The notes under the pieces are model-generated. The model ran no database searches, was not told where the DNA came from, and saw nothing but the letters and a program-made list of their open reading frames with translations. Of a DNA stretch of 64,000 bases, positions 34,662-40,348 are shown piece after piece. Each line of letters starts with the position of its first letter. Position 1 is the first letter of the stretch. This stretch comes from Planctomycetota bacterium (GTDB lineage Bacteria; Planctomycetota; Planctomycetia; Planctomycetales; Planctomycetaceae), in contig QWPB01000084.1 in assembly GCA_003671275.1 (NCBI GenBank), positions 1-64,000 on the forward strand, given 5' to 3'. Position numbers and translations under genes: made by a program.

Positions 34662-35990
34662 TTATTCCGTCATGCCTTCGGAGGCTGCGGATTTCCACCC
34701 GCTCAAGGTATCACTGAGGATTTCGTGGATCGCCCGGCGATCCTCTGGGCTCAGGTGTACGAATTCCGGGGACTGGTCCCGGCCACTCAGGACGGCTCGC
34801 AACTTGTCGAGGACCGCCGATTTGGCCTGCGGCGGCAGCTGTGTGAAACTATCCGAATAGATCAGATAGCTGCAGGGATATTTGAACATCCGGGTCTGTA
34901 GATCCAGATCACGCAGTGACCGGCCACGGCTATCGCGGGGGCCCGTGTTGGAGAATTCAGCGGTAAATCCGGAGGTCCCTGCCACAGGTGCGGCGAGCGC
35001 GAACTCCTGGCTGAATAACATGTATCGCACCAGTTTGTCGACGACTCCCTGGATGCGGCGTCCAGTGAGTTCGCTTTCAAAATCTGCGGGTCGTTCCAGG
35101 GCTTTGTTCATGATCTGATCGTGGTGCAGGGCGCTCCGGGTTTCAAAATTGACCAGCGTCAGGTGGTTGTGCATCTGCACCTGGTGCTCAAGCACCATCA
35201 AGGCGACCAGATCGCTATGTGGGGTTAAGTACGGGGTGACCGAAACAATCGGGCTCAGGTCCGTGATATTGGCTCCCGCTTCCCGGTCGATGGCTTCCGG
35301 GGCCTGTCGCTTGGCGATGACGTTTCCCATGTGCCGCATGGCACCATGCTGTCCGGTGACGTACCACCCGCCCCATCGCTTGAAGAAATCGCTGGAGTGA
35401 TCGGTGTTGAAAGTGCCCGAACCGAGCAGGGGATGCCCCCCTTGGTCCGAGTAGACCGACCGGACAAGCAATCCTGGCACTCCCTGAGTGCGGGAGGAGG
35501 CGTGGCAGGTCAGGCACTGACCACGATCACGAAGGAACTGCGGCTTGGCTGCGGGGTCTTCAGGAGCCGTTTGGTTGAGGGTATAGAAGATCGTCCCTTG
35601 CTGGCTGTCTTGTGCAGCCACCTCCAGAACGTCCCCCTGCTGGCAATAGCCGATGTACATATCGTCGCTGAAATAGACAGCTCGGGGGCGTGAGGGGGTA
35701 ATGCGGCGCAGCTGAAGGCTGGTTTTGGAGAAGACCAGCGTCTGCGACGAAGGCGGAACGTTGAGCAGCTTCAGGACCGATTCGAGATAACCGCGCTGCG
35801 GGTCACGTTGGAGTTCGATTTCGCCCGCATCAATCTGGGCCTGCAGGCGTGTAATACGGGTGTTCACTGGTGTGGTGTCATAGGCGATGGGAGCGGCTTC
35901 AAACTCCAATTGGGCATGAGCCACCCCGGAGGCCAGCGCCAACCAGACCATGCCCCCCCACAGGAGGCTCAACTCGCGTACAAACATCAT
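34662..35990 (-). CDS. Secreted protein with a CxxCH haem-binding motif
   Basis: 442 residues from ATG 35990, which precedes a signal peptide (LLWGGMVWLALASGVAHA). A longer frame to 36056 would place extra residues ahead of it. A single c-type haem motif, CLTCHAS, is in DRGQCLTCHASSRTQGVPG, followed by a large domain with GGWYVTGQHGAMRHMGN and MVLEHQVQMHNHLTLVNF, a histidine-rich stretch that could bind metal. No named family recognised; resembles planctomycete periplasmic cytochrome-like proteins. Divergent from the response regulator. Confidence 0.78.
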   Translation of the reverse strand: MMFVRELSLLWGGMVWLALASGVAHAQLEFEAAPIAYDTTPVNTRITRLQAQIDAGEIELQRDPQRGYLESVLKLLNVPPSSQTLVFSKTSLQLRRITPSRPRAVYFSDDMYIGYCQQGDVLEVAAQDSQQGTIFYTLNQTAPEDPAAKPQFLRDRGQCLTCHASSRTQGVPGLLVRSVYSDQGGHPLLGSGTFNTDHSSDFFKRWGGWYVTGQHGAMRHMGNVIAKRQAPEAIDREAGANITDLSPIVSVTPYLTPHSDLVALMVLEHQVQMHNHLTLVNFETRSALHHDQIMNKALERPADFESELTGRRIQGVVDKLVRYMLFSQEFALAAPVAGTSGFTAEFSNTGPRDSRGRSLRDLDLQTRMFKYPCSYLIYSDSFTQLPPQAKSAVLDKLRAVLSGRDQSPEFVHLSPEDRRAIHEILSDTLSGWKSAASEGMTE

Positions 35991-36237: not shown

Positions 36238-36999
36238 ATGAGTGATCGCAAACGGATTCTGATTGTCGAAGACGAAGAGTCGATCGCCGCTGGGCTGCGA
36301 TTCAATTTCGAGCAGGAGGGGTACGACTCGCTGGTGGTGGGGGAGGGGCGATCGGCTCTGGCCCAGTTTGCCGAAGGAGGCGAAGGGGCGGATTTGGTTG
36401 TGTTGGACCTGATGTTACCCGGGATGAGCGGCTATGAGATTTGTCGGGGGATTCGGGAGTATGATCCCCGCGTGCCGATCATGGTGCTGAGTGCCCGCAC
36501 GTTGAGCGAAGACCGGTCCCACGCGTTTGACTGCGGAGCGGATCAGTATTTGACCAAGCCCTTCGCGTTGCCTGAACTGTTGAGTCGCGTTCGGAATCTG
36601 CTGGATCGCAATATCCGATTGGGGGTGGGGGCCGAGCCCGAACGGGCTCCTCTCGAGTCCTATCGGTTTCACGATGTCGAAGTCGACTTCCGTTCGTTTG
36701 AGCTGCGACGTGGGGATCAGGTTCACCGCCTGACAACGATGGAGATGCAGCTGTTCAAGTTTTTCATTGAGCATGAGGGAGAGGTTCTATCACGTGCCCG
36801 AATCCTGAAAGTCGTCTGGGACCAGAGTGCCGAGGTAACGACCCGGACCATCGACAATTTCGTAATGCGATTGCGGAAGTATGTTGAACATGACCCGACC
36901 GCTCCGCGTCATCTCGTATCCGTTCGGGGTACGGGATATCGATTTACGGCTGATTCGGATGTTGCAACTCCTTTTGTGGAAGATGATTACGAGTCTTGA
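36238..36999 (+). CDS. PhoB/OmpR-family response regulator
   Basis: 253 residues from ATG 36238 (MSDRKRILIVEDE). The receiver domain has the acidic pair in VEDEE, phospho-acceptor Asp57 (VVLDLML), Ser in VLSART and Lys in TKPFALPELL. A winged-helix DNA-binding domain follows from about residue 150 (EVDFRSFELRRGDQVHRLTTMEMQLFKF) with the recognition helix SRARILKVVWDQS and TTRTIDNFVMRLRKY. No histidine kinase is nearby, so it is an orphan regulator here. Its stop overlaps the first unit of the TGAC array leading to the desaturase. An alternative start 18 bases upstream is possible. Confidence 0.94.
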   Translation: MSDRKRILIVEDEESIAAGLRFNFEQEGYDSLVVGEGRSALAQFAEGGEGADLVVLDLMLPGMSGYEICRGIREYDPRVPIMVLSARTLSEDRSHAFDCGADQYLTKPFALPELLSRVRNLLDRNIRLGVGAEPERAPLESYRFHDVEVDFRSFELRRGDQVHRLTTMEMQLFKFFIEHEGEVLSRARILKVVWDQSAEVTTRTIDNFVMRLRKYVEHDPTAPRHLVSVRGTGYRFTADSDVATPFVEDDYES

Positions 37000-37058
37000 C
37001 GTGGCTTTGACAGAGTGTGACAGGACTTTGACCAAACTTTGAATCCCTGCTGACAGAG
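36994..37058 (+). promoter_or_regulatory. Array of six TGA(C) direct repeats, 10-11 bp apart
   Basis: TGA begins at 36997, 37008, 37018, 37029, 37040 and 37051, giving spacings of 11, 10, 11, 11 and 11. Five of the six units read TGAC, and three read TGACAG, whose complement CTGTCA is the half-site of the E. coli Pho box. Direct repeats at one helical turn are what PhoB/OmpR-type regulators bind. The array lies between a gene for such a regulator and a desaturase gene (ATG at 37150). The last unit, CTGACA, could overlap a -35 box. Confidence 0.65.
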
Positions 37059-37149
37059 TCGCTCCGAAGATTGTGTTAGAGTCCTTGCCGCCTCGATTGG
37101 CCGAACGTCGGCGATCCAGGTTCACGGGACTCCCGAACGGAGATCAAAC

Positions 37150-38142
37150 ATGTCAGCCATTCCTGTACCCACCCCTGAGACGGGGAACCGCGACGATTGG
37201 CGAAAGACCAAGGCCGAAGAGCGTTCACTGCTCCTGTCGACGTTCGGTCGCCAGAACCTGCGGTGGGATAACGTCGACTGGGTCGTCGTGGTCTGGATGC
37301 TCGCTATGCACGTCGGAGCACTTGCGGCTCCGTTCTTCATCACTTGGGAGGCGGTCGTTACCGCCGTAGTGCTGCACTGGGCCACCTGCAGTGTGGGGAT
37401 CTGCCTGACGATGCACCGGTATTTGAGCCATCGGTCGCTGAAGTTGCGGACGCCTGCTAAGTTCTTTGGTCTACTTTGTGCGACCATCGCGGGTGAGGGC
37501 ACGCCGATGCACTGGTCGTCAGTGCATCGCATCCATCATCAGAAGTCGGACCAAGAAGGGGATCCACACTCACCGAACGAAGGGGATTGGTGGTCGCACA
37601 TTCTGTGGACTTTTACTGGGCGAGATTCCCGTTTGCGTCCGACGATGTACCGCCATTTTGTCCCGGATTTGGTTCAGGACAAGATGATGTGGTTCTTTGA
37701 AAAGGCTTTCGGTCCCGTGCTGATCGGGACGGGAATTCTGCTGTACGTGATCGGTGGGCTGCCGATGTTGCTGTGGGCGATGTGTGTTCGGATGGTGTTT
37801 GCCTACCATAGTACGTGGTTTGTCAACTCGGCCACGCACATGTGGGGCTACCGCACGTATGAAACATCGGATCGTTCCCGCAATCTGTGGTGGGTCGCGG
37901 TGCTGGCTTACGGTGAAGGGTGGCACAACAACCACCATGCCTACCCGCGGTTGGCCCGGGCTGGACACAAGTGGTGGGAAGTCGACCCCACCTGGATGTT
38001 CATTCGCTTCCTGCAACTGATTGGTCAGGCATACGATGTGGATGCCCGGCTGCCCCAGGATTTACCCGCCACTAAGTCGGGCGGCGTGCTGCAGCAGCTG
38101 CAAAGCAAGTCGAAGGGCGTTTCGCCTGTCGAGGCAGCGTAA
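37150..38142 (+). CDS. Acyl-CoA/fatty acid desaturase
   Basis: 330 residues. Membrane di-iron desaturase introducing a double bond into acyl chains. The three histidine boxes are intact: HRYLSH (89-94), HRIHH (126-130) and HNNHH (259-263). Hydrophobic segments surround them (VDWVVVVWMLAMHVGALAAP; VLIGTGILLYVIGGLPMLLW). No fused cytochrome b5 domain is present, so electrons must come from elsewhere. The order regulator-array-desaturase suggests regulated membrane lipid adjustment. A hairpin terminator follows the stop. Confidence 0.94.
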   Translation: MSAIPVPTPETGNRDDWRKTKAEERSLLLSTFGRQNLRWDNVDWVVVVWMLAMHVGALAAPFFITWEAVVTAVVLHWATCSVGICLTMHRYLSHRSLKLRTPAKFFGLLCATIAGEGTPMHWSSVHRIHHQKSDQEGDPHSPNEGDWWSHILWTFTGRDSRLRPTMYRHFVPDLVQDKMMWFFEKAFGPVLIGTGILLYVIGGLPMLLWAMCVRMVFAYHSTWFVNSATHMWGYRTYETSDRSRNLWWVAVLAYGEGWHNNHHAYPRLARAGHKWWEVDPTWMFIRFLQLIGQAYDVDARLPQDLPATKSGGVLQQLQSKSKGVSPVEAA

Positions 38143-38344: not shown

Positions 38345-39397
38345 ATGGCCCACACTGTGGATGAACTCGCTGTGCTGGTCCAGGGAACGGTCTTTGGGGA
38401 TGGGCTGGTGCGGGTTTCGAATGTGGCCGCACTCGATTGTGTGACGCCGGAAACGATGACTTTTCTCGACAGTGCTCGCCGCGTAAAACGTCTGGAGGGG
38501 CTCACTCCCGGCGCTTTGATCGTTCCGCGCGATGCGGTTGAGGCGGTTCAAAAAATCGTCAGTTGTCCATTGATTGCCGTGGAGGATTCCCAGGGAGCAT
38601 TCATCTCCTTGATGCTGCATTTTCGCCCGCTGGCTGTGCGACAGACGACCGGCATCTCGCCCCAGGCCAGCATTCATCCCTCGGCTCAGATCGGTTCTGG
38701 CACCAACGTTCACAGTTCCGCCGTGATCGAGGCCGATGTGACGATTGGGGCGAACTGTGACATTCATGCCGGGGTCGTCATCCGTCGCGGTTCGACTCTC
38801 GGTGACGAGGTGACACTGCACCCGAATTCCGTGCTGTATCCCGGTATGCAATTGGGGGCTCGCGTGATCGTTCATGCCAATGCTGTCATTGGAGCCGATG
38901 GGTTTGGATATCGATTTCTCAAGGGGGAATACGTTCGCATCCCGCACACCGGGATCGTGCGAATTGATGACGATGTCGAGATTGGGGCCTGTACCACGAT
39001 CGATCGGGCCATGGTGGGCGAGACCGTGATCGGGGCCGGTTCGAAGATCGATAATCTGGTCATGATTGCCCACAACTGCCGGATTGGAAAACACAACGCC
39101 TTTGCATCGCAGGTCGGCTTCGCGGGTTCGATCACCACGGGGGACTATGTTCGCTGTGCGGGGCAGGTCGGTATCGCGGACCACATCAAAATTGGAGACA
39201 AGGCCACGCTCGGGGCCAAGGCGGGCGTCATGGTCGACATCCCCGCCGGTTCGACCCAGGTGGGGATTCCCTGTTTGCCGGACAAGGAACAGTTCCGCGT
39301 CATGTTGGCGACGCAGCGTCTCCCGGAACTGGTCAAAAAGGTCGAAGCCCTCGAACAGCGTTTGGCAGCGCTCATCGCCAGTCAGGATGCTGCTTAA
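38345..39397 (+). CDS. lpxD: UDP-3-O-acylglucosamine N-acyltransferase LpxD
   Basis: 350 residues. Adds the second acyl chain to UDP-GlcN in lipid A synthesis. An N-terminal uridine-binding domain ([14 protein letters not shown]...[14 protein letters not shown]) is followed by a left-handed beta helix of hexapeptide repeats ([26 protein letters not shown]). The catalytic His lies near residue 240 in [12 protein letters not shown]. The C-terminus is a coiled helix. Next gene downstream is lpxI. Confidence 0.95.
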
Positions 39398-39478
39398 ATG
39401 TGCGGGAGGGGCGGTCCCCTCCCGCGTCTCATTCCTCACCCCCTGTTCTTTGCTGTGACTGCACCTGCCACCATCCCG

Positions 39479-40348
39479 ATGCGACCTTCTCAGCCCGAGC
39501 GAATTGGCTTGCTGGCGGGATGGGGGCGTTTTCCGATTGTGTTCGCGGAAGAAGCCCGGCGGCAGGGGTACTCGGTCGTGTGCAACGCAATCGAGGGCAT
39601 GGCCGACGAAGAAATGTCGCGATACTGCGATCACGTTCGATACACACCGCTGGCCCGACTGGGGGCGGCGATCCGTTTCTTTCACAAGCACCGCGTCAAA
39701 CGCGTGGTGATGGCCGGCAAGGTCCATAAGCAGGTGCTCTTTTCACCGTGGCGGGTACTGCACTTGATGCCTGACCTGCGAACACTGAATATGTGGTTGC
39801 GGCATGTGGCCAACAAGAAGGATGACACGCTGTTACTGGCGGTCATGCGCGAGTTTGAGCGCGACGGAATGCAGTTCGAATCCGCTCTCACCTTTTGTCC
39901 GGAGTTACTCGTGAAACACGGATTCCTCACCAAGCGTCAACCGACGGCCGCCCAGTGGAAAGACATTCGTTTTGGCTGGGAAATGGCCAAGGAAATGGGG
40001 CGGCTGGACATCGGTCAGACCGTCATCGTGAATGACACCGCCGTCATCGCCGTCGAGGCCATCGAGGGCACGGATCAGTGCATTCGGCGGGCGGGAGAAC
40101 TGTGCAAACGCGGTAATCTGGTGGTCATTAAGGTGGCTAAGCCCAACCAGGACATGCGGTTTGATGTTCCCACGATCGGAATCCAAACCTTGCAGACCAT
40201 GCAGGAGGCCGGAGCCCGCGTGCTGGCCATCGAAAGCGGGATGACCATTCTGCTGGATGAGCCCGAAGTGATCGCCATGGCGGAACGCCTGGGAATCGCC
40301 ATTGTCTCTCTGAAGTCCGAAGAGGTTCAGCTGCGCGTTGTGGCCTGA
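39479..40348 (+). CDS. lpxI: UDP-2,3-diacylglucosamine pyrophosphatase LpxI
   Basis: 289 residues from ATG 39479 ([19 protein letters not shown]). Hydrolyses UDP-diacylglucosamine to lipid X, using the LpxI enzyme rather than LpxH. Family motifs are [31 protein letters not shown]-type C-terminal blocks, and [23 protein letters not shown], the metal- and substrate-binding region. The open frame extends 27 codons upstream, but no homology lies there. Adjacent to lpxD on the same strand, 81 bases apart, so the two act in sequence. Confidence 0.93.

Follow-up and report, generated by a model that had tools for sequence, protein, structure and literature searches.

The direct repeats between a response-regulator gene and a fatty-acid desaturase gene in this planctomycete genome are, with a probability of roughly 0.77, an operator through which a dedicated two-component system controls the desaturase; the kinase of this system would most likely become active on membrane stiffening or cooling. 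The window, i.e., the whole 64-kb stretch of DNA that was analysed, contains the following features of this putative circuit.

36238 to 36999, forward strand: OmpR/PhoB-type response regulator of 253 aa, with a receiver and a winged-helix DNA-binding domain (Pfam Response_reg, 91.5 bits; Trans_reg_C, 73.9 bits).
36997 to 37011, forward strand: two additional upstream half-sites (TGAC at 36997 and 37008), read from the sequence and followed by one 10-bp step; the 11,10 spacing also occurs in genome G001 of the same genus.
37018 to 37056, forward strand: conserved four-unit core TGACAGGACTT TGACCAAACTT TGAATCCCTGC TGACAG (alignment of 39 loci; leave-genus-out matrix, 39.5 bits).
37077 to 37082, forward strand: probable -10 element TAGAGT, at an offset shared with TATAMT-like hexamers in most relatives.
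37139 to 37142, forward strand: probable ribosome-binding site GGAG, 7 nt before the ATG (from the sequence only).
37150 to 38142, forward strand: membrane fatty-acid desaturase of 330 aa (Pfam FA_desaturase, 74.9 bits; cut-off 29.7).

The array consists of six TGA starts at 36997, 37008, 37018, 37029, 37040 and 37051, separated by steps of 11, 10, 11, 11 and 11 bp. Five of the six units read TGAC, the exception being TGAA at 37040, and three of them (37008, 37018 and 37051) read TGACAG. On re-reading the sequence, the positions, spacing and counts given in the original prediction proved exact. The first TGA of the array doubles as the regulator's stop codon. Shuffling the window 300 times with dinucleotides preserved never produced a chain of six TGAs at 10- or 11-bp steps; the longest chain had four TGAs (reached in 21 shuffles), and none of 200 shuffles matched the TGAC-chain score of the 500-bp region preceding the desaturase. 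No second chain of this kind was found elsewhere in a scan of the window.

Downstream of the array, the probable -10 at 37077 begins 26 bp past the T of the last unit and 59 bp past the first core unit. Neither a consensus -35 with 16–18 bp spacing nor a consensus sigma-70 promoter was found between 36900 and 37200. Direct-repeat half-sites about 11 bp apart that adjoin the -35 region are the arrangement of an OmpR/PhoB-type operator. The translated desaturase carries the histidine boxes HRYLSH, HRIHH and HNNHH. A leader-RNA thermometer in its 5' region was considered and rejected, with folding no better than that of shuffles (z = -0.74). Directly after the desaturase and on the same strand lie homologues of LpxD and LpxI of lipid A synthesis (38345–40348). 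Upstream of the regulator, on the opposite strand (34662–35990), is a protein of approximately 440 aa with a CxxCH haem-like motif (CLTCH), for which Pfam and NCBIfam returned no match.

The array of repeats is a genuine promoter element and is conserved across a planctomycete family. Desaturase homologues were found in 54 of the 59 relatives searched, and an in-phase array lies upstream of the desaturase orthologue in nearly all genomes of family f1 and also in f4; in most loci, its score exceeds those of all 200 shuffles. Loss of the 11-bp periodicity in relatives had been named beforehand as grounds for giving up the prediction, and the periodicity turned out to be conserved. The gap-free alignment of 39 loci yields the core TGACANAASTT TGACANAAGTT TGACNNNNNNC TGACAC, with a TATAMT-like -10 that starts 26 bp beyond the T of the last unit, a distance fixed in most loci. 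Given that most relatives have four units, which match the promoter-proximal four here, 37018–37056 was taken as the conserved core. Six units were seen in G001, with the identical 11,10,11,11,11 spacing, and in G014, at 11 bp throughout, while the f5 array is a diverged TTAC form. In four loci (L010, L017, L021 and L025), the regulator has moved away yet the array remains with the desaturase, so that the array does not simply result from the 3' end of the regulator gene.

Trained with the window's genus left out, a 39-column matrix scored 39.5 bits at 37018; the next-best places in the window reached 15.8 bits (a register shift of the array) and 8.4 bits. It also found the same place, with 36.2 bits, in the kinase–regulator–array–desaturase locus of a planctomycete MAG outside the training set (L225, JAHZKX010000065). 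The background maximum was 10.3 bits in 1.2 Mb (both strands of pstS loci and of further loci, the majority from other phyla), and desaturase upstream regions from all 13 of 13 regulator-negative genomes scored below zero. When 1.4 Mb was scanned, every match above 18.8 bits lay at a desaturase, and with five column-permuted matrices no match exceeded 14.5 bits. As that scan used a matrix built from those very loci, the independent test is the leave-one-out analysis, in which the same place was found in every f1 genome. The f5 arrays were recovered weakly by the f1-trained matrix (5.7–12 bits). A second desaturase of G017 (L094) has a weaker, three-unit array of 21.6 bits; the paralogues checked in G026 and G033 are without one.

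The presence of the array follows that of the regulator. Regulator orthologues form a clean group (at least 208 bits, next best 144) present in 44 of the 59 genomes, 40 of which also have the desaturase. The array precedes the desaturase in 39 of these 40 relatives and in none of the 13 genomes that have a desaturase and no regulator, a comparison in which some of the 39 matches belong to the matrix's own training set and which partly reflects phylogeny, since the regulator-negative genomes are mostly from other families (f2 and f3). One loss falls inside f1, namely G004, where regulator, kinase and array are all gone. In G054, the regulator is present and a search upstream of the desaturase found no array. 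Adjacency of regulator and desaturase is conserved as well, in tandem or, in f5, convergently. Residues D12, D57 (the phospho-acceptor Asp) and K107 are invariant in regulator orthologues and paralogues, as expected of the OmpR/PhoB family. Nor is there a sign of autoregulation, since none of the scanned loci has an array in front of the regulator gene.

Furthermore, at the positions corresponding to the PhoB base contacts T194 and V197, the f5 regulator, whose recognition helix reads TRAPDQFI, has A and Q where the others have T or S and N. This helix change parallels the TTAC in place of TGAC in the f5 units and is suggestive of co-evolution between half-site and recognition helix, to judge from sequence comparison; the correlation is not perfect, since some units in G025 and G033 read TTAC although the helix is unchanged. 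Array conservation and co-occurrence make the adjacent regulator the likely binder, in keeping with the original proposal that it controls the desaturase through half-sites about 11 bp apart. Together with the parallel divergence in f5, co-occurrence is indirect evidence of binding. The regulator very probably acts through the array on the desaturase.

In most relatives, a kinase of approximately 300 residues (304–353 aa in most) is encoded directly upstream of the regulator. It has two N-terminal hydrophobic helices separated by a gap of a few residues or none, followed by HisKA and HATPase_c only; a domain search found no HAMP, PAS or extracytoplasmic sensor domain. Such a short protein with two transmembrane helices and a very short loop has the layout of an intramembrane-sensing histidine kinase. 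The genome of the window (G000) encodes the orthologue on another contig (C79:18234-19127, L206), where it stands alone, with 83% identity to a same-genus copy; in G002, also of this genus, kinase and regulator are adjacent. The regulator had been called an orphan, which is correct locally, with no kinase beside it in the window, but not genome-wide: the orthologue on C79, which is the regulator's neighbour in most relatives, means that it is not a true orphan. We infer that the two would form a pair in G000, based on this gene order in relatives.

To cover genes other than the desaturase, we searched 162 genomes of the family for an exact, gene-blind pattern of two units plus a -10 at the right distance, and genome-wide statements here rest on such pattern searches. 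The pattern occurred at 27 sites, against 1 for the reversed-pattern control. Of the 27, 22 precede a desaturase gene, 4 the gene for an RRM RNA-binding protein and the last one that for a DEAD-box helicase. At the RRM sites (G007, G021, G036 and G064; L316:639, L317:1726, L354 and L364), the -10 has the same 59-bp offset, and the genes have 5' leaders of approximately 230–630 nt. The helicase site (RhlE/CshA-like; G066, L355:1565-1501) is approximately 700 nt before the start codon. The regulator was present in 18 of the 19 newly found pattern-positive genomes; in G131, which has the site, it was searched for and not found. Other two-unit matches, in G019, G006 and G020, fall within predicted coding sequence or overlap it, and were taken as chance.

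Neither RNA-related gene qualified as a general target. No site precedes 30 homologues of the helicase in relatives including G000, so that G066 is a single case, and the RRM site is found at four of the closest orthologues and is absent in G020 and from more distant RRM proteins; no close RRM homologue was found in G000. The further TGACAG arrays looked for in G000 did not materialise, the window site being its only match to two units plus a -10. A wider regulon in G000 was likewise not found with a three-unit pattern allowing one mismatch (4 matches versus 6 in controls).

We propose that the small inner-membrane kinase (C79:18234-19127), with its two helices and no sensor domain outside the membrane, would phosphorylate the regulator. 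Phosphorylated dimers would fill the four core half-sites head-to-tail, as two dimers, and a third could occupy the two extra upstream units in the window. The regulator would thereby cover the -35 region with one helical turn per subunit, replace the -35 contact and recruit RNA polymerase to the -10 at 37077, leading to production of desaturase and, in turn, to more fluid membrane lipids. The signal would be the physical state of the membrane, most likely a stiffening such as cooling brings about. The same element may, in some relatives, also drive the RRM protein and, once, the DEAD-box helicase, by way of long 5' leaders. RRM and helicase targets with long leaders are as expected of a cold response, and the kinase layout together with the identity of the targets makes a membrane or cold signal somewhat probable. 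An array at a fixed distance from the -10 without a consensus -35 is typical of activation by OmpR-family regulators. As both features are present here, we infer activation rather than repression.

Two variants of this model would place the same parts in another role: the regulator might bind the array as a repressor, or the signal might be another envelope stress (pH, osmotic or peptide). Some OmpR-family proteins do repress from the -35 region, which the units cover here, but the absent consensus -35 and the fixed array-to--10 distance fit activation. Kinases of such a layout also serve as envelope-stress sensors, and SaeS of Staphylococcus aureus answers several signals (PMC9600363); the desaturase, RRM protein and RNA helicase targets nevertheless fit cold adaptation. 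We therefore regard these variants as unlikely.

A link of the array to PhoB and phosphate, as originally predicted, did not survive. On that account, the array would be a Pho box bound by PhoB, tying the desaturase to phosphate limitation. TGACAG is indeed the reverse complement of the Escherichia coli half-site CTGTCA, the PhoB consensus being TGTCA(T/C) (PMC3264566), and the best NCBIfam model for the regulator is PhoB (TIGR02154), yet at 171 bits the match is under the cut-off of 296, with 243.5 bits for the pst-linked PhoB. The PhoB of G000, one of only three full OmpR-type regulators in this genome, is a different gene, behind pstSCAB-phoU on contig C31; it ranks third in similarity, with 29% identity. 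Its recognition helix, ERTIDVHVRALR, has valine at base contact 197, as against asparagine in the window regulator (TRTIDNFVMRLR; residues according to PMC3264566). In G000 and many relatives, the direct repeats of the pstS promoters are TTMACA, not TGACAG, and no pstS locus or promoter rose above background with the array matrix. Moreover, the array tracks the regulator, while pstS was not found at the search cut-off in array-positive G015, G022, G023, G024, G028 and G036. Control of the array by PhoB is accordingly very improbable. As a separate observation, a candidate planctomycete Pho box precedes pstS (G000:C31, L095:14440-14560; L110-L129), made up of (A)TCTTMACAATT direct repeats that several genomes have in tandem.

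It is scarcely credible that an ordinary constitutive promoter underlies the repeats, with the units as redundant or accidental -35 boxes (TTGACA-like), despite the resemblance of TTGAC to a -35 hexamer, as the last unit is 21 bp from the -10 and thus too far for sigma-70, the 11-bp phase of four units is kept over dozens of genera, the region is without a consensus promoter and the presence of the array follows the regulator.

The preferred reading is thus that of an operator for a membrane-responsive kinase and its OmpR-type regulator. We found no description of a regulator of desaturation or of a cold sensor in planctomycetes in the literature searched, in which few subscription journals were included. 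The odds are about even that the system is a previously undescribed planctomycete regulon for cold or membrane rigidity, consisting of an intramembrane kinase and an OmpR-type regulator with a four-unit operator, with the main desaturase as target everywhere and the RRM protein and DEAD-box helicase in some lineages. If true, lipid and RNA cold adaptation would be coupled under one regulator, in a phylum with unusual membranes. The candidate circuit is complete and testable (kinase, regulator, operator, promoter and target), is conserved over many genera, and would amount to a regulon with almost a single target, to which two genes for RNA handling are occasionally added. It may be a good natural example in which to examine how a minimal kinase with two helices senses the membrane and how half-sites and recognition helices evolve together.

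Several known systems resemble it in part. In DesK-DesR, a membrane kinase and a response regulator also switch on a lipid desaturase (delta-5 in Bacillus subtilis). DesR is a NarL/LuxR-type regulator, whereas the regulator here has an OmpR/PhoB winged helix and tandem 11-bp half-sites. DesK of B. subtilis is activated when membrane lipids rigidify (PMC8301901, PMC6879721) and has five transmembrane helices (PMC8301901), compared with two in the kinase here. Hik33 contains HAMP, leucine zipper and PAS regions that this kinase is without, and controls many genes, whereas the element described here controls very few. RpaB is OmpR-type. In Synechocystis, Hik33, a kinase with two transmembrane helices, and the response regulator Rre26/RpaB control desB in the cold (PMC3264485, PMC6789579). 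Cyanobacterial RRM proteins and RNA helicases are cold-induced, and RbpA3 secures desaturase mRNA; rbp1 and crhR are cold-induced but independent of Hik33 (PMC6789579, PMC3264485). SaeS of SaeRS in S. aureus shares the two transmembrane helices and the very short linker, and its activity depends on membrane fatty acids (PMC9600363), but SaeRS targets virulence genes, not lipid desaturation. The PhoB/Pho box and KdpE half-sites represent the same winged-helix family recognising direct-repeat half-sites (PMC3264566); the operator here differs in having four to six units instead of two, a TGACANAASTT unit, N at the position of PhoB V197 and a location away from pst genes. Two-component control of a desaturase is thus known from DesK-DesR and Hik33-RpaB, and the parts of the planctomycete system are differently built.
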